In this document: positions 1 through 7,953 of the stretch, piece after piece
Numbering within the stretch: the first letter of the stretch is position 1
Layout: every line of letters begins with the position of its first letter
Assembly (NCBI GenBank): GCA_018828385.1
Contig: JAHJVE010000005.1
Location: 62,001 to 126,000 of the forward strand
Direction: 5' to 3'
From: Gammaproteobacteria bacterium
GTDB lineage: Bacteria; Pseudomonadota; Gammaproteobacteria; Burkholderiales; Rhodocyclaceae
DNA length: 64,000 nt
Made by a program: the position numbers and the translations under genes
Notes under the pieces: generated by a model
Database searches by the model: none
Seen by the model: only the letters and a program-made list of their open reading frames with translations
What the model was told of the DNA's origin: nothing

Positions 1-294
1 TGCCCGGCCACGCCGGAAGCGCCGAAGCCGCCGACCAAGAAGCTGTCGATCGTCGAGAAGATTGCCAAGATCCAGGAAGTGCTCGAGTCGGTTCGCCCGA
101 TGCTCCAGCGCGATCACGGCGATGTCGAGCTGGCCGACGTCCAGGGCAAGAAGATCTATGTGCACCTCAAGGGCGCCTGCTCCGGTTGCATGATGGAAGC
201 GGCAACCCTTGGCGGCATCCAGCAGAAGATGATCGAAGTGCTGGGTGAGCTGGTGCAGGTTCTGCCGTCGTCGCACATGCCCGTAGAGGCCTGA
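1..294 (+). CDS. nifU: NifU, C-terminal part (5' end outside window)
   Basis: The reading frame is open from the first base, so the gene starts upstream and only the last 97 residues are seen. They form the Nfu-type C-terminal domain, with the CSGC metal-binding pair in the stretch [11 protein letters not shown]. NifU is the scaffold on which NifS-derived sulfide and iron are assembled into clusters for nitrogenase. A Pro/Lys-rich linker precedes the domain, as expected where the central ferredoxin-like domain ends. nifS follows 82 bp downstream on the same strand, which supports NifU over a general Nfu or IscU protein. The nitrogenase genes themselves are not in the window. Confidence 0.88.
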
Positions 295-302
295 TCGAGA
301 CT

Positions 303-340
303 GCTACGGTCAACTGGAAAAAACGGCCAAATTCGAAATC
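303..340 (+). repeat. 38-bp interspersed repeat, copy A
   Basis: This copy lies in the nifU-nifS gap. Its core reads ACGGTCAACTGGAAAAAA followed by CGGCCAAATT. Closely similar blocks occur at 12184-12221 (minus), 25984-26021, 55475-55512 and, within fliF, 63201-63238 (minus). Similarity between this copy and the one at 25984 continues about 14 bp further downstream (GAAATC, then a CCAACTCAA-like stretch). It does not form a strong hairpin and has no obvious flanking duplication. Its function is unknown. Confidence 0.7.
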
Positions 341-375
341 ATCCCAACCTCAACAGAGAAACCGAGGACTGCGCC

Positions 376-1584
376 ATGAAACCGATCTATCTCGACAACA
401 ACGCCACGACGCGGGTCGATCCCGCGGTGGTCGAAGCCATGCTGCCGTTCTTCACAGAGCATTTCGGCAACGCCTCGTCGATTCACGCCTTTGGCAGTGA
501 AGTCGGCAAGGCGCTGAAGAAGGCCCGCAGTCAGGTTCAGGCGCTGCTCGGCGCCGAGCATGACTCGGAAATCATCTTCACCTCCTGCGGCACCGAGTCC
601 GACTCGACCGCCATCCTCTCCGCCCTCAAGGCCCAGCCCGACCGCAACACGGTGATCACCACCAACGTCGAGCACCCGGCCATCCTGACCCTGTGCGACT
701 GGCTCGAGAAAGAAGGCTATATCGTCCACAAGCTCAAGGTGGACAAGAAGGGCCGCATCGACCTGGACGAATACAAGTCGCTGCTCCATGACCGCGTCGC
801 CATCGTTTCGGCAATGTGGGCCAACAACGAAACGGGCACCATCTTCCCGGTCGTCGAGATGGCCGAAATGGCCGCCGCCAAGGGCATCATGTTCCACACC
901 GACGCCGTGCAGGCCGTCGGCAAGATTCCCATCGATCTCAAGAACACCAAGATCGACATGCTTTCGTTGTCCGGCCACAAGCTGCACGCCCCGAAGGGCA
1001 TCGGCGTACTCTACTTGCGCCGTGGCTGCCGCTTCCGTCCGCTACTCCGTGGCGGTCATCAGGAACGCGGTCGTCGCGCCGGCACCGAGAACTCGGCCTC
1101 CATTGTCGCCCTCGGCATGGCCTGCGAACTCGCCCAGCAGAAAATGGACGTCGAGAATACCGAAGTCCGCCGCCTGCGCGACAAGCTGGAAAAGGGCATC
1201 CTGAGCCAGGTTACCCACGCCTTCGTCACCGGTGATCCGAGCAATCGCCTGCCCAATACCGCCAACATCGCCTTCGAATACATCGAGGGCGAGGCCATCC
1301 TGCTCCTCCTCAACAAGGTTGGCATTGCCTGTAGTTCCGGCTCGGCCTGCACCTCGGGCTCGCTCGAACCATCGCACGTGATGCGCGCCATGGGCATCCC
1401 CTACACCGCCGCGCACGGCACGATCCGCTTCTCGCTGTCGGTCTACAACACCGAAGAGGAAATCGACCGCGTCATCGAAGCGGTGCCGCCCATCGTCGCC
1501 CAACTGCGCAAACTTTCGCCGTACTGGACCGACAAGGGCCCGGCCGCCAATCCCGAAGCGGCCTTCGCCCCGACATACGCCTGA
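376..1584 (+). CDS. nifS: NifS cysteine desulfurase
   Basis: This 402-residue PLP enzyme removes sulfur from cysteine and hands the persulfide to NifU. Visible signatures are the N-terminal YLDNNATT, the PLP-binding lysine K202 in SGHKLHAPKG, and the catalytic cysteine C325 in SSGSACTSG, the same position as in Azotobacter NifS. The start ATG has an upstream GAGG. The placement after nifU and the NifS-type active-site loop argue for the nitrogen-fixation paralogue rather than IscS. The C-terminus carries a short Ala/Pro-rich tail. A strong terminator follows 32 bp after the stop, so this is the end of the nif operon. Confidence 0.93.
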   Translation: MKPIYLDNNATTRVDPAVVEAMLPFFTEHFGNASSIHAFGSEVGKALKKARSQVQALLGAEHDSEIIFTSCGTESDSTAILSALKAQPDRNTVITTNVEHPAILTLCDWLEKEGYIVHKLKVDKKGRIDLDEYKSLLHDRVAIVSAMWANNETGTIFPVVEMAEMAAAKGIMFHTDAVQAVGKIPIDLKNTKIDMLSLSGHKLHAPKGIGVLYLRRGCRFRPLLRGGHQERGRRAGTENSASIVALGMACELAQQKMDVENTEVRRLRDKLEKGILSQVTHAFVTGDPSNRLPNTANIAFEYIEGEAILLLLNKVGIACSSGSACTSGSLEPSHVMRAMGIPYTAAHGTIRFSLSVYNTEEEIDRVIEAVPPIVAQLRKLSPYWTDKGPAANPEAAFAPTYA

Positions 1585-1647: not shown

Positions 1648-2619
1648 CTACTCGCGATTGAGTTCGACCCGGTTGCGCCCGGCGCTTTTTGCGGCGTACA
1701 GGCTGCTATCGGCCGTCCTGACCAGTAGCTGCGGGGCGGTGTCGATGCTCGGCTGGGTGCTGGCGACGCCGAAGCTGCAGGAGACGCGGCCGTCGATGCC
1801 GCGCTCGTGCGGGATGCGCAGGTCCCGGGCCGATTGGCGCATGCGTTCGGCCACCGCGTAGGCGCCTTCGGCATCGGTGCCGGGCAGGATGGCGACGAAT
1901 TCCTCGCCGCCATAGCGGGCGACGCAGTCCTCGACGCGAAAGAGTGATTCGCTGAGCGAATTGGCCACCGCCCGGAGGCAGTGATCGCCCGCCTGGTGAC
2001 CGTAGATGTCGTTGAATTGCTTGAAGAAATCGACGTCGCTGAGGACGATGCTGAGCGGCGCCTCGTTGCGGATGCAGCGCTTCCATTCGACGAGCAGCGT
2101 GTCGTCGAAGTGGCGCCGGTTGGGGATGCCCGTCAGGCTGTCGAGAATGGCGATTTCCTTGAGCTGACGATGGACTTCGCAGATTTCCTGCTGCCGGGTC
2201 GAAATACGCAGCAGGGCACGAACCTTGGCGAGCAGGACGACCTCCGAAACCGGCTTGGACAGGAAGTCGTCGCCGCCAGCCAGAATGCCCCGGGCCAGCG
2301 TGTCCTCGTCGGTAACCGAGGAGAGGAAAACGATCGGCGTCCACGGCGAAATGCCTGTTTCGATTCTGGAAAGCTCCCAGGCGCGGATTCTTTGCGTCAG
2401 TTCGATGCCGTTGGTGTCCTGCTGGGTGGTGTCGAGTAGAACCATGTCGGGCTGAATTTCGCGAAACATCTGCAAGGCTTGCTCGGCATCACCCGTGGCG
2501 ATGGTGCGGACTTCAGGCAGTTGGCGAAGACACTCGCAAATCAGCGCCCGATTGCCGGCTGAGGGGTCGATGACGAGTACGGTCGGCTTGTTTCTGTCGG
2601 ATGCGGCCTGTTCGGACAT
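1648..2619 (-). CDS. Response regulator with GGDEF domain (diguanylate cyclase)
   Basis: The 323-residue protein has a receiver domain (about 12-140) and a GGDEF domain (about 155-320) predicted to make cyclic di-GMP. The active-site loop is intact (RYGGEEF, GGEEF at 237-241) and an inhibitory-site RVED lies five residues before it, as in product-inhibited cyclases. The likely phosphoacceptor is D63 (VLLDTT) and the conserved lysine is in FLSKPV. The usual Asp pair near the N-terminus is reduced: the stretch reads VLVIDPSA, with Pro in place of the second Asp. I chose the ATG at 2619 because a GAGG lies in front of it; an in-frame ATG eight codons upstream lacks one. The gene stands alone and no partner kinase is adjacent. 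Confidence 0.88.
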   Translation of the reverse strand: MSEQAASDRNKPTVLVIDPSAGNRALICECLRQLPEVRTIATGDAEQALQMFREIQPDMVLLDTTQQDTNGIELTQRIRAWELSRIETGISPWTPIVFLSSVTDEDTLARGILAGGDDFLSKPVSEVVLLAKVRALLRISTRQQEICEVHRQLKEIAILDSLTGIPNRRHFDDTLLVEWKRCIRNEAPLSIVLSDVDFFKQFNDIYGHQAGDHCLRAVANSLSESLFRVEDCVARYGGEEFVAILPGTDAEGAYAVAERMRQSARDLRIPHERGIDGRVSCSFGVASTQPSIDTAPQLLVRTADSSLYAAKSAGRNRVELNRE

Positions 2620-2783
2620 GATCGGATTGCCTCGTCGGATCAAAGTATTGATCGATCATAGCACCATGGCGAGAGGGGGCAGAAGCGGATGCCATTTTCG
2701 ATCGACCCGTCGAGGAGTAATATGTGGTCGTTTTCCATACGGTACCGTCTGGAAAAGCGATCGATATTCAGGAGACTGTGGCA

Positions 2784-3607: not shown

Positions 3608-6046
3608 ATGCCTCCCGCTTCCTGTTATCACTGTGGCCTGCCCATTCCCGATGATGTCGATCTGTCGGTGACGGTCGGCGGGGAGCCGCGGGCCATGTGC
3701 TGTTTCGGCTGCCAGGCGGTGGCTCAGTCGATCGTCGACAACGGCCTGGCCGATTATTATCGCAGCCGCGATGCGATGCCCGAGTCGCCGCGCGAAGCCA
3801 TGCCGGCGATTCTCGAACAACTGGTCATGTACGACCATGCCGAGTTCCAGAAAAGTTTCGTCAAGGAACTGGGGCAAAACGAGCGGGAAGCCTCGCTCCT
3901 CCTCGAAGGTATTACCTGCGCCGCGTGTATCTGGCTCAACGAGCAGCATGTCGGCCGGTTGCCGGGGGTAACTGCCGTCACCATCAACTACACGACCCGC
4001 CGCGCGCGCGTGCGCTGGGATGAATCCCGGATCAAGCTTTCCGACATCCTCGGTGCGGTCGCCGCCATCGGCTATCGCGCCTACCCTTACGACGCCGCCA
4101 AGAACGAGGAAATCTCCCGCAAGGAGCGGCGCGATGCGATGTGGCGTCTGTGGGTTGCCGGCTTCGGCATGATGCAGGTCATGATGTATGCCTACCCCGT
4201 GTATATCGCCGACGGTGAAATGGCGCCGGATATCGAAAGCCTCATGCGCTGGGCCAGCATGTTGCTCACCCTGCCCGTCATCTTCTATTCCTCGGCGCCG
4301 TTCTTCCGCAACGCCTGGCGCGACATCAAACTGCGTCGCGTCGGCATGGACGTGCCGGTGGCGCTGGGCGTCGGCACAGCGTTCGTGGCCAGTTGCTGGG
4401 CAACCTTTATGCAGTCCGGCGAGGTCTATTTCGATTCGGTCACGATGTTCATTTTTTTCCTGCTCGGCGGCCGCTATCTTGAAATGACGGCGCGCCAGAA
4501 GGCCGTCAGCGTGACCGAGGCGCTGGCCAGGCTGCTCCCGGCCTTTGCCCAAAAAATGGCCAAGTTTCCGGTTGACCGTGAGACCGAGCAATGTGTCGTC
4601 GCCGATTTGCGTCCCGGCGACTACATCATGGTCCGGGCTGGGGACGTCGTGCCGGCCGACGGAAGGGTCATCGAAGGCATCAGTTGCGCCAACGAGGCCC
4701 TGCTCACCGGCGAAAGCAAGCCAGTGCCGAAGGCTCCCGGCGAGGCGGTAACCGGGGGCTCGATCAATGCCGAGAGTCCGCTCGTCGTTCAGGTCGAGCG
4801 CGTCGGCGAAGAAACGCGTCTGTCGGCCATCATCCAGTTGATGGAACGGGCGGCGGCGGAAAAGCCGAAAATCGTCGTCCTGGCTGATCGCATTGCCAGC
4901 TATTTCGTCGCGGTCTTGCTGGCCGTGGCGGTATTGGTCGCCGTCGGCTGGTATTTCGCCGATCCATCGAAAGCGCTGTGGATCACCGTATCGGTGCTGG
5001 TCGTCACCTGTCCTTGCGCCCTGTCGTTGGCAACGCCCATCGCGCTGACCGTCTCGGCTGGCGCTCTGGCCAAGGATGGCCTGCTCGTCACGCGTGGCCA
5101 TGCCATCGAAACGCTGGCCAGGGCAACGCATTTCGTCTTCGATAAAACAGGCACTTTGACTACCGGGCGCATGCATCTGGTTGACGTTTTTCCTGCTGCA
5201 GCTACGAGTCGGGAGGACTGTCTGGCGATCGCCGCCGCCCTCGAACACGCCTCCGAGCATCCGGTGGCCAGCGCGCTGCGTCAGGCCGCCGGCGAGCAGT
5301 TGCCCGCAACCTCCGCCGCCGTGAGTGAGCCGGGTCAGGGCATGGAGGCGATCGTCGGCGGCCGTCGCTGCCGTATCGGCCGTCCCGATTACGCGCTGGC
5401 CCTGAGTGCCGGCAAATTGCCGGATACAGCCGCCGACTGGCTGGAAAGCGGCGACACGGTGGTCGTTCTTGCCGATGAAGACGGCTGTCTGGCACTGTTC
5501 AGAATCGGCGACGAGTTGCGCCAGGAGTCAGCAGCACTGATTGCCGAGCTTCGCGCCGCTGGCAAAAAAGTCATCCTGCTCACGGGCGATGCCCCGGCGG
5601 TTGCCCAGCGCGTTGCCGATAAGCTCGGTATCGCCGATGTGCGGGCCGGTGTGACTCCCCAGGGCAAGCACGATTGTGTTACCGGGCTTCAGGCGGAAGG
5701 TGCCGTCGTCGCCATGTTGGGTGATGGCGTCAACGACGCCCCTGTGCTGGCCCAGGCACAGGTCTCGGTGGCCATGGGCGGCGGTGCCCAACTGGCCAGG
5801 ACGCAATCCGACTTCATCCTGCTTTCTGAGAATCTCGACCACCTGCGTCATGGCTTGCGGCGGGCCCGCAAAACGCTGGATGTGATTCGCCAGAACCTCT
5901 GGTGGTCCTTCGCGTACAATTTCGTAGCCTTGCCATTGGCCATTGCCGGGTATGTAACTCCGTGGATCGCCGGCATCGGCATGTCGGCCAGTTCTTTACT
6001 GGTCGTCCTCAATTCGCTGCGCATTCAGCGCGTGGAGACAGATTGA
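3608..6046 (+). CDS. ccoI: CcoI copper-transporting P-type ATPase for cbb3 oxidase assembly
   Basis: An 812-residue P1B-type ATPase of the CcoI/FixI group, which moves copper across the inner membrane for the CuB centre of cbb3 oxidase. The N-terminus has the family cysteine cluster (CYHCGLP at 6-12, then CCFGC) and a heavy-metal domain with CAAC. The membrane metal site CPC is at 468-470, the phosphorylated aspartate is D512 in DKTGTLT, an HP locus is present (SEHPVAS), and the hinge reads GDGVND. The start has no visible Shine-Dalgarno, but it matches the family N-terminus. It overlaps ccoS by one base, which shows cotranslation. Confidence 0.95.
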   Translation: MPPASCYHCGLPIPDDVDLSVTVGGEPRAMCCFGCQAVAQSIVDNGLADYYRSRDAMPESPREAMPAILEQLVMYDHAEFQKSFVKELGQNEREASLLLEGITCAACIWLNEQHVGRLPGVTAVTINYTTRRARVRWDESRIKLSDILGAVAAIGYRAYPYDAAKNEEISRKERRDAMWRLWVAGFGMMQVMMYAYPVYIADGEMAPDIESLMRWASMLLTLPVIFYSSAPFFRNAWRDIKLRRVGMDVPVALGVGTAFVASCWATFMQSGEVYFDSVTMFIFFLLGGRYLEMTARQKAVSVTEALARLLPAFAQKMAKFPVDRETEQCVVADLRPGDYIMVRAGDVVPADGRVIEGISCANEALLTGESKPVPKAPGEAVTGGSINAESPLVVQVERVGEETRLSAIIQLMERAAAEKPKIVVLADRIASYFVAVLLAVAVLVAVGWYFADPSKALWITVSVLVVTCPCALSLATPIALTVSAGALAKDGLLVTRGHAIETLARATHFVFDKTGTLTTGRMHLVDVFPAAATSREDCLAIAAALEHASEHPVASALRQAAGEQLPATSAAVSEPGQGMEAIVGGRRCRIGRPDYALALSAGKLPDTAADWLESGDTVVVLADEDGCLALFRIGDELRQESAALIAELRAAGKKVILLTGDAPAVAQRVADKLGIADVRAGVTPQGKHDCVTGLQAEGAVVAMLGDGVNDAPVLAQAQVSVAMGGGAQLARTQSDFILLSENLDHLRHGLRRARKTLDVIRQNLWWSFAYNFVALPLAIAGYVTPWIAGIGMSASSLLVVLNSLRIQRVETD

Positions 6047-6237
6047 TGGAAAGTGTCTACCTGCTTATTCCGGTTTCGGTCCTCCTGGTTTTCGGGATCG
6101 CCGTGGCCTTCTGGTGGTCGGTGCGCAGCGGCCAGTTCGATGATCTCGAGGGGCCCGGCTTTCGCGTCCTGATGGACGAAGATCAGCCGACGCCACCCAA
6201 GAACGACGAGGAAGCCAACAAACCCGTCAATAGTTGA
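6046..6237 (+). CDS. ccoS: CcoS cbb3 oxidase maturation protein
   Basis: A 63-residue protein with one N-terminal membrane helix (about 5-27) and the family sequence AFWWSVRSGQFDDLEGP, followed by a charged cytoplasmic tail. CcoS is needed to put haem b and copper into the cbb3 catalytic subunit. Its ATG shares the A of the ccoI stop codon (TGATG). The end of the gene overlaps an FNR-type box, so the 3' end of this operon and the control region of the next unit are interleaved. Confidence 0.92.
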   Translation: MESVYLLIPVSVLLVFGIAVAFWWSVRSGQFDDLEGPGFRVLMDEDQPTPPKNDEEANKPVNS

Positions 6238-6247
6238 CCTGCGTCAA
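6234..6247 (+). promoter_or_regulatory. FNR/ANR-type box, upstream copy
   Basis: TTGAC-CTGC-GTCAA is a perfect dyad matching the TTGAC-N4-GTCAA variant of the FNR/ANR site. It overlaps the ccoS stop codon. A -10-like CAGAAT begins at 6270, 22 bp after the box, which is the spacing of class II FNR-activated promoters. The predicted start of transcription would be near 6282. Confidence 0.65.
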
Positions 6248-6281
6248 CGCTTAGGATGATCCTGCTTGGCAGAATTACGCC

Positions 6282-6350
6282 GTTGCGAGGCAAATGCCTC
6301 GCTGTATTTCTCTGTTGGGGTTGGGGTGCGTTACGACGCACCCTTTTTTT
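6282..6350 (+). ncRNA. Candidate FNR-driven small RNA, about 70 nt
   Basis: This region between ccoS and ccoN would start at the -10 described for the box at 6234 and end at a strong terminator. It contains two perfect hairpins: GCGAGGCA/TGCCTCGC (6285-6302), and the terminator GGGTGCGT/ACGCACCC with a TACG loop (6324-6343) plus seven T (6344-6350). Between them is a U/G-rich single-stranded stretch with UUUCUCU, the sort of sequence that could pair with Shine-Dalgarno regions. No open reading frame is visible. FNR-controlled small RNAs are known in other groups (FnrS, AniS), but I recognise no family here. The hairpin may instead only end the ccoIS transcript. Confidence 0.45.
6324..6350 (+). 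terminator. Rho-independent terminator after ccoS
   Basis: An 8-bp perfect stem with a TACG (UNCG-class) loop is followed by seven T. It ends the ccoIS transcript and possibly the small RNA proposed just upstream. Confidence 0.9.
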
Positions 6351-6418
6351 GTCCACGTTTCCCGCGCGTCTTGCTACGACTACATATTTCGGACTATCTG
6401 CCTTAGATAATAGGTAGG

Positions 6419-6459
6419 TTGATCTAGGTCAAAACGCACGCCCTGAACTAGAATACCAT
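6419..6459 (+). promoter_or_regulatory. FNR/ANR-controlled promoter of ccoNOQP
   Basis: The box TTGAT-CTAG-GTCAA (6419-6432) matches 9 of 10 consensus positions of the FNR site. A -10-like TACCAT (6454-6459) follows after 21 bp, close to class II spacing, so the start point would be near 6466. This is the expected low-oxygen control of cbb3 oxidase genes. Confidence 0.72.
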
Positions 6460-6528: not shown

Positions 6529-7953
6529 ATGTCTGGAACGAAAACCACATATAACGACAAAGTCGTACGGCAATTCGCTGTCATGACTGTTATTTGGGGC
6601 ATTGTTGGCATGCTGGTCGGTGTCATCATTGCTGCGCAGTTGGTCTGGCCGGAGCTGAATATTGGCTTCCTGCACTTTGGTCGTCTGCGCCCGCTGCATA
6701 CCAACGCAGTTATTTTTGCGTTTGGTGGCTGTGCTCTGTTTGCAACGTCTTACTGGTGCGTTCAGCGCACTGGGCACACCCGTTTGTGGGGTGGTCCGCT
6801 AATTCCATTTACTTTCTGGGGTTGGCAGCTTGTTATTTTGTTGGCCGCTATCAGCTTGCCATTGGGTATTACCCAAGGTAAGGAGTATGCCGAACTGGAA
6901 TGGCCGATCGACATCCTGATCACGCTGGTCTGGGTTTCGTACGCAATTGTTTTCTTCGGTACCATCGGCAAACGCACCGTTTCTCACATCTATGTGGCGA
7001 ACTGGTTCTTCGGTGCAATGATCATTGCTGTCGCTCTGTTGCATTTGGGTAACAGCGCGGCACTGCCTGTTTCCTTCCTGAAGTCCTACTCTGCATACGC
7101 CGGTGTGCAGGACGCGATGATTCAGTGGTGGTATGGTCACAACGCTGTGGGCTTCTTCCTGACCGCTGGCTTCCTCGGCATGATGTATTACTTTGTGCCG
7201 AAACAGGCTGGTCGGCCGGTTTACTCCTACCGTTTGTCTGTGGTCCACTTCTGGGCGCTGATCTTTACGTACATGTGGGCGGGCCCGCACCATCTGCACT
7301 ACACAGCGCTGCCTGACTGGACGCAGTCCGTCGGTATGATCTTCTCTCTGATTCTGTTGGCTCCGTCCTGGGGGGGCATGATCAACGGCATCATGACCCT
7401 GTCGGGTGCCTGGCATAAGCTGCGCGACGACCCCATTCTGAAGTTCCTGATCACCTCGCTGTCCTTCTACGGTATGTCTACGTTCGAAGGTCCGATGATG
7501 TCGATCAAAACTGTCAATGCCTTGTCGCACTACACGGACTGGACTGTCGGTCACGTTCACTCCGGTGCTCTTGGCTGGGTGGCGATGGTTTCCATCGGTT
7601 CCATGTACTACCTGCTGCCGAAGCTCTTTGGTAAGACTGAGATGTATAGCACCAAGCTGATGACGACCCACTTCTGGATTGCCACGATCGGTACCGTGCT
7701 TTATATCGCTTCGACCTGGATTTCCGGCGTGATGCAGGGCTTGATGTGGCGCGCAGTAAATGCCGACGGTACGCTGGCTTACAGCTTCGTCGAGTCCGTC
7801 AAGGGTTCCTATCCGTTCTGGGCAATCCGTTGGTTGGGTGGTGTCCTCTTCCTGTCCGGTATGTTGATCATGGCTTACAACATGTTCAAGACCATGGCTG
7901 GCGGTAGCACCAAGGACACGCCGGTGATCGTTCCGGTTGGTCATCACGCCTGA
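6529..7953 (+). CDS. ccoN: cbb3-type cytochrome c oxidase subunit I
   Basis: The 474-residue catalytic subunit carries haem b, haem b3 and CuB and reduces oxygen to water. It has the expected dozen or so membrane helices. Metal-ligand histidines are recognisable in the [31 protein letters not shown] and [10 protein letters not shown] segments. The start at 6529 has GAGAGGTGGG just upstream and fits the family N-terminus; a longer in-frame start at 6478 lies in the leader. It is the first gene of ccoN-O-Q-P, under the FNR-type box about 100 bp upstream. Confidence 0.97.

Follow-up and report, generated by a model that had tools for sequence, protein, structure and literature searches.

Does the short stretch between ccoS and ccoN in the 64,000-nucleotide piece of DNA analyzed here (the window) encode a small RNA that answers to oxygen through FNR? 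To our knowledge, descriptions of FNR-driven small RNAs come from few lineages. An earlier note on this DNA proposed such an RNA between the two genes, and this proved to be the best reading of a block that is conserved and from which transcript and FNR dependence can be predicted. We consider it likely, with good confidence, that positions 6234 to 6350 form a conserved unit running from an FNR box to a terminator and encode an FNR-activated, trans-acting small RNA, made at low oxygen, that would repress many target mRNAs by pairing through its linker. At the level of sequence, this is supported by the box, the hairpin-linker-terminator layout, the conservation of the unit and the fact that complementary sites accompany the RNA gene. 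From these features we infer transcription from about position 6282, FNR as the probable activator, Hfq as a likely helper and repression over the Shine-Dalgarno region.

Architecture and conservation of the unit between ccoS and ccoN

All features of the locus lie on the plus strand. A ccoI-like gene for a copper P-type ATPase (3608 to 6046; Pfam E1-E2_ATPase, HMA and ATPase-cat_bd) is followed by ccoS, encoding the cbb3 oxidase maturation protein (6046 to 6237; Pfam FixS, 75.4 bits), and the downstream neighbor is ccoN (6529 to 7953; Pfam COX1). The FNR-type dyad TTGACctgcGTCAA (6234 to 6247), predicted to be the class II activator site of the small RNA, overlaps the ccoS stop codon (TGA, 6235 to 6237). 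Past the dyad by 22 nt, at the spacing of a class II FNR promoter, lies the -10-like hexamer CAGAAT (6270 to 6275). Since the box is centered at 6240.5, class II spacing (41.5) puts the start near 6282 and hence CAGAAT at -12 to -7. The RNA predicted from this spacing (6282 to 6350; match to model R1 at 6281 to 6350, 92.3 bits) consists of a 5' hairpin, GCGAGGC-aaat-GCCTCGC (6285 to 6302), a near-invariant linker, TTTCTCTGTTGGGGTTGGGG (6307 to 6326), and an intrinsic terminator (6324 to 6350) with the stem GGGTGCGT-TACG-ACGCACCC (6324 to 6343) and seven T (6344 to 6350). The linker region, which contains UUUCUCUGUUGGGGUU, is the predicted pairing region. A second FNR-type box, TTGATctagGTCAA (6419 to 6432), likely serves ccoN. 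Dyad, hexamer and terminator with its TACG loop and seven T were thus all present where the earlier note had placed them. Its description of an RNA of about 70 nt with one internal hairpin also stood; what it took for a U/G-rich loop is mostly linker between two hairpins.

The 70-nt RNA folds with a predicted energy of -31.4 kcal/mol (z -4.87), which none of 200 shuffled sequences equaled, and a weak UCUC/GGGG pairing appears between the two hairpins in the predicted fold. Scanning this sequence alone with a sigma-70 pattern gave no site, and a terminator scan of it found two terminators versus 1.1 expected. Such promoter and terminator scans of a single sequence say little by themselves, and it is conservation rather than these scans that lifts the unit above chance level. 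The genome itself carries an FNR gene, above the profile cut-off, as well as an Hfq gene, and the RNA predicted in the window has a seven-U tail.

A BLASTN search with positions 6180 to 6360 matched 30 of 36 same-genus genomes (own genome counted) and none of the 24 genomes sampled elsewhere in the order, outside the family; among the six same-genus genomes without a match, five are listed as 70 to 89% complete and one as 95%. Core and box were found at all 30 loci, each with the strict dyad TTGAY-N4-RTCAA upstream of the core; 28 boxes read exactly TTGAC-N4-GTCAA, and two carry one change. The genus alignment comprised 29 copies, as the thirtieth (L029), with a broken T run, was excluded. In these copies UUCUCUGUUGGGGUU is invariant, and the 5' hairpin covaries, all seven of its pairs having changed on both sides. 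The predicted RNA measures 66 to 71 nt in the genus. By the rule also applied to the family, only 18 of the 30 genus boxes have a -10-like hexamer behind them at class II distance (random sequence, 72 of 1,500).

Across the GTDB family, model R1 matched 154 of 199 genomes in 55 of 68 genera, almost always at one place per genome, a count that includes at least one false match (G064), which was rejected for having no core, no cco match alongside and no pattern match. Sixty R1-matched places were examined, and 59 have the core. The strict dyad TTGAY-N4-RTCAA lies within 130 nt upstream at 55 of these 59 loci, versus 4 of 1,893 random 130-nt stretches, and in 51 of these 55 cases the box has a -10-like hexamer behind it at class II distance (random, 66 of 2,750). 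The surroundings are kept too, with ccoN within 600 nt downstream at 54 of 59 loci and ccoS upstream at 53 of 59. Predicted RNA length is more variable in the family (39 to 134 nt, median 95). In 76 distinct sequences the linker core UUCUCUGUUGGGGUU is near-invariant, and five of the eight terminator stem pairs have changed on both sides, a level reached in none of 500 shuffles. The linker is therefore nearly invariant while both hairpins covary. Conservation from box to terminator in relatives, proposed as a check of the idea, held, because the block recurs as one unit across the family.

The position of the unit, directly behind ccoS in nearly all loci, would also suit a simpler explanation, namely that it has no RNA function of its own and simply forms the 3' end of the ccoIS mRNA, its terminator joined by an FNR site that helps ccoN and its linker kept for local purposes, e.g., termination or RNA stability. 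A strong terminator would indeed serve ccoIS. However, ccoN appears to have a box of its own: as proposed earlier for the one at 6419, a second FNR-type box lies between terminator and ccoN, closer to the latter, in 49 of the 54 family loci with ccoN downstream. Moreover, the invariant UUCUCUGUUGGGGUU is unnecessary for termination, and the genome-wide complementary sites described below track the RNA. We regard the 3'-end explanation as highly unlikely and keep to an FNR-controlled small RNA.

Searching with R1 at E values up to 0.01 gave a match in 24 of 80 ccoN loci from named records, all in records labeled as members of the Rhodocyclales, as unspecified Betaproteobacteria or as Proteobacteria. 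The named records of the family include Dechloromonas, Accumulibacter, Thauera, Denitromonas and Parazoarcus, groups associated with denitrification, phosphorus removal and the breakdown of aromatics. In other families of the order, full-strength copies were detected with the core model R2 in two genomes, G403 (L215; listed with 6% contamination) and G422 (L216), both with the FNR box and with ccoI, ccoS and ccoN around them. These copies outside the family may reflect transfer, misbinning or an older origin. A genome of another family of the order (G299; L217, C1:1389513-1389558) gave a 33-bit R2 match that lacks the CTCTGTTGG core and stands far above the terminator-like background. Most of the matches in 80 of 300 genomes of the order scan were set aside as apparent generic terminators, since only 11 of the 80 reach 60 bits, and the 48 of 274 genomes matched at E values up to 0.01 in the class scan also look like generic terminators.

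Likeness to described small RNAs

Comparison of the window with Rfam, a check suggested in the earlier note, showed no family passing its gathering score anywhere in the window; two families, SorY and AniS, match below threshold. SorY (RF02651) is the best of the sub-threshold Rfam matches with 40.3 bits in cmscan (E 2.6e-7; gathering score 111), and AniS (RF02274) reached 20.7 bits (gathering score 50). Rfam also holds an FnrS family, the model of which gave no match up to E 5 in Rfam searches of the window and none in those of ten relatives. The SorY-like similarity was seen at 6285 to 6351 of the window and again in two of ten relatives (L122 and L149; 38.6 and 32.4 bits), and it may reflect remote kinship or convergence.

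These matches raise the possibility that the RNA is a remote member of a described family, either SorY of Rhodobacter or the neisserial AniS/FnrS, retained from a distant ancestor. The hairpin-linker-terminator layout is shared, and with SorY so is CUGUUGG..UUGGG. The gonococcal FnrS/AniS, which is FNR-induced, is described as having a stem-loop at its 5' end, then an unstructured part and a terminator (PMC3032703), the same layout as predicted here, with a different linker. Yet the gathering scores of both families are far higher than the scores obtained. SorY of Rhodobacter sphaeroides is described as being controlled by alternative sigma factors, of the RpoH stress type, and as targeting a malate transporter mRNA (PMC8307010), whereas the RNA predicted here has an FNR dyad instead. 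In addition, an R2 scan of 274 genomes, all from the class Gammaproteobacteria, returned nothing above 29 bits besides the own genome. The Rfam scores rule out membership in SorY or AniS proper, and descent as a remote member is in our view unlikely.

The RNA proposed here is similar in its predicted control to FnrS of E. coli, which is driven by an FNR class II site centered at -41.5 (PMC3032703). An FNR dyad at class II distance, the mark of an FnrS-type RNA, was found at 55 of 59 family loci, with a -10-like hexamer after 51 of 55, as far as sequence can tell. The promoter logic is the same, but seed, location and predicted targets differ; E. coli FnrS regulates metabolic and stress genes, e.g., sodB, grxD and marA (PMC10993149). 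Judged by these features, the likeness of the predicted RNA to E. coli FnrS is one of logic and does not extend to sequence. NfiS and NfiR of Pseudomonas stutzeri are reported to pair with the nif mRNAs nifK and nifD and to stabilize them (PMC9170634), whereas the nif-related sites of the RNA predicted here precede nifS and nifB. S17 of Bordetella pertussis is presented as a small RNA that is conserved widely among betaproteobacteria and has a C/U-rich 5' end; its annealing is expected to interfere with the binding of ribosomes (PMC11722255). It differs in being processed from a longer RNA beside coq7, and the term "fnr" is absent from the main text of that paper (PMC11722255); S17 is related to bdhR1 (RF02278), which gave no match here. 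A text search with the core letters found no paper, and literature searches of open-licence PMC articles returned no description of the predicted RNA, which is a weak negative.

Complementary sites in RNA-bearing genomes

Prediction of targets by pairing to start regions, also put forward in the earlier note, yielded complementary sites before many genes, which we take as the predicted regulon. In the own genome, the complement of the core occurs with one mismatch at three sites besides the gene, two of which lie in leaders, those of nifS and of a 2Fe-2S ferredoxin. The nifS gene (376 to 1584, plus strand; NCBIfam TIGR03402, 652 bits versus a cut-off of 530.75) is the predicted target in the window. 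Its leader site (340 to 361, plus strand) would pair with positions 6307 to 6328 of the small RNA over 22 consecutive pairs, two of them G-U, with -38.3 kcal/mol compared to -33.1 for the best of 200 shuffles. When leaders within the window were ranked, nifS came first (-34.2), followed at -27.8 by the leader of an ORF unlikely to be a real gene. The site before nifS also exists in four other same-genus genomes. The start region of ccoN was rejected as a target, its duplex reaching only -8.7 kcal/mol, as was an own-genome site before a 34-amino-acid ORF, the duplex energy of which was no better than that of shuffles. The nifS gene stands with a NifU-like domain gene at the start of the window (79 to 1584), a few kilobases from the cco cluster, and the predicted site sits in the gap that separates the two. 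A gene for a response regulator with a GGDEF domain (1648 to 2643, minus strand) lies between nifS and the cco genes.

We searched 50 RNA-bearing genomes of the family for CCCAACCCCAACAGAGA with up to two mismatches and obtained 121 matches, 49 in the RNA gene and 72 elsewhere, versus 17 matches for the reversed pattern. An ORF of at least 60 amino acids starts 2 to 40 nt downstream of 60 of the 72 sites, although a handful of these 60, e.g., ones with TTG starts, look like chance ORFs. The sites are not independent, as the 60 proteins cluster into 43 groups, the two largest of which come from one genus. ATG is the start codon of 56 of the 60 ORFs, and in 32 of these 56 the site ends at most 12 nt before it and hence covers the Shine-Dalgarno region. 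What is new here is that complements of the linker exist outside the gene and lie mostly just upstream of ORFs.

Genomes without the RNA served as controls. Fifty genomes from other families of the same order contained 24 sites, none of them with fewer than two mismatches (reversed pattern, 12); nine of the 24 are near an ORF start, four of these with ATG. Twenty same-family genomes without an R1 match contained four sites, again all with two mismatches (reversed pattern, 6). Sites with a single mismatch numbered 21 in the 50 RNA-bearing genomes versus none in the 70 control genomes. By these counts, the predicted target sites co-occur with the RNA gene. Furthermore, the letter beside the seed, which lay outside the search pattern, tracks the letter of the RNA, with A:G at 14:1 where the RNA has U and 9:9 where it has C (P = 0.009), a test in which one genus weighs heavily. 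A preference for G-U among the mismatches (29 of 63 versus 9 of 27) was not convincing.

The right end of the site, CAGAGA or CGGAGA, resembles a Shine-Dalgarno sequence, and the RNA-less genomes of the order held twice as many sites as reversed-pattern matches. Some of the site excess therefore stems from Shine-Dalgarno-like letters, and the sites as a whole might be a translation enhancer or a Shine-Dalgarno-rich leader motif of the family that is independent of the RNA. Several results speak against this. The left half, CCCAACCCCAA, is not Shine-Dalgarno-like, and permuting it while keeping the same right end left only three matches in the same 50 genomes. RNA-less genomes of the same family have only the four two-mismatch sites in 20 genomes, and the sites before nifS and the ferredoxin gene are located further upstream than the start-proximal region. 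An RNA-independent leader motif is thus very unlikely in our estimation, and we treat the sites as predicted targets of the FNR-controlled RNA.

Predicted regulon and proposed function

All 60 site-linked proteins were clustered, and 36 of them were run against profile libraries. Several predicted targets recur: NifS has a site upstream in five genomes of the genus, the 2Fe-2S ferredoxin in five genomes plus a sixth (the own genome) with a bulged site, TusE/DsrC in four genera and acetylating acetaldehyde dehydrogenase in two. FolE2 has a site in G126; an opposite-strand R2 match led to a relative in G079 with 58% identity. Single cases comprise 4-hydroxyphenylpyruvate dioxygenase (own genome), catechol 2,3-dioxygenase, an FAD monooxygenase, a sarcosine-oxidase-like protein, a fatty-acid-desaturase-like protein, cytochrome bd oxidase subunit I, peroxiredoxin C, glutathione peroxidase, isocitrate lyase, acyl-CoA dehydrogenase, NifB, a YfhL-type ferredoxin and an Fpr-like reductase. 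Alkaline phosphatase, phasin, a branched-chain amino acid permease, an outer-membrane efflux protein and others have no clear link to oxygen, a point against the explanation. Functions that consume oxygen or relate to peroxide would nonetheless make up much of the predicted regulon, alongside Fe-S, sulfur-relay and nif genes.

In the mechanism that we propose, FNR would activate the promoter at the 6234 to 6247 dyad under low oxygen and Hfq would hold this U-tailed RNA, whose linker would pair with the ribosome-binding regions of target mRNAs. Sites over the Shine-Dalgarno region would lead to repression; for sites 15 to 40 nt upstream, as in nifS and the ferredoxin, activation would be as possible as repression. 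Given the make-up of the predicted regulon, the RNA would shut down aerobic functions when FNR is active and tune the supply for Fe-S clusters and nitrogen fixation. Repression of nif genes under low oxygen would run against expectation, and this counts against the explanation. Overall, the data point to a real, family-wide sequence unit that is likely an FNR-controlled small RNA, with a regulon that is computationally well supported. A bolder reading, to which we give an even chance, is an oxygen master switch that evolved independently in the Rhodocyclaceae: one FNR-driven RNA, in the locus of the high-affinity oxidase, would use a fixed seed of 17 to 22 letters to silence oxygenases, bd oxidase and peroxide defense and to set Fe-S, sulfur-relay and nitrogen-fixation supply, with targets rewired from genus to genus.

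If made as proposed, the FNR-controlled RNA would be a further FNR-driven small RNA, found in 55 of 68 sampled genera of one family, and would tie the oxygen signal post-transcriptionally to oxygen-dependent catabolism and nitrogen fixation. The seed hardly varies and some relatives are without the RNA, so gain and loss of target sites should be readable from genomes, which would make the evolution of a small RNA regulon directly testable.

Some of the sites precede short ORFs. In three same-genus genomes a site lies 5 nt ahead of the start of a conserved 86-amino-acid protein (MSATTIDCKGQ...; L248:423-680, also in L236 and L244) that matched nothing in Pfam. In two genera a site directly precedes the start of a 150-amino-acid protein (L261:841-1293 and L280:422-871), the L261 copy of which had no Pfam or NCBIfam match. 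A 34-amino-acid hydrophobic ORF (MDELSYVGITF..., from L250), with a duplex energy no different from that of shuffles, follows a site in two same-genus genomes (L250 and L243).
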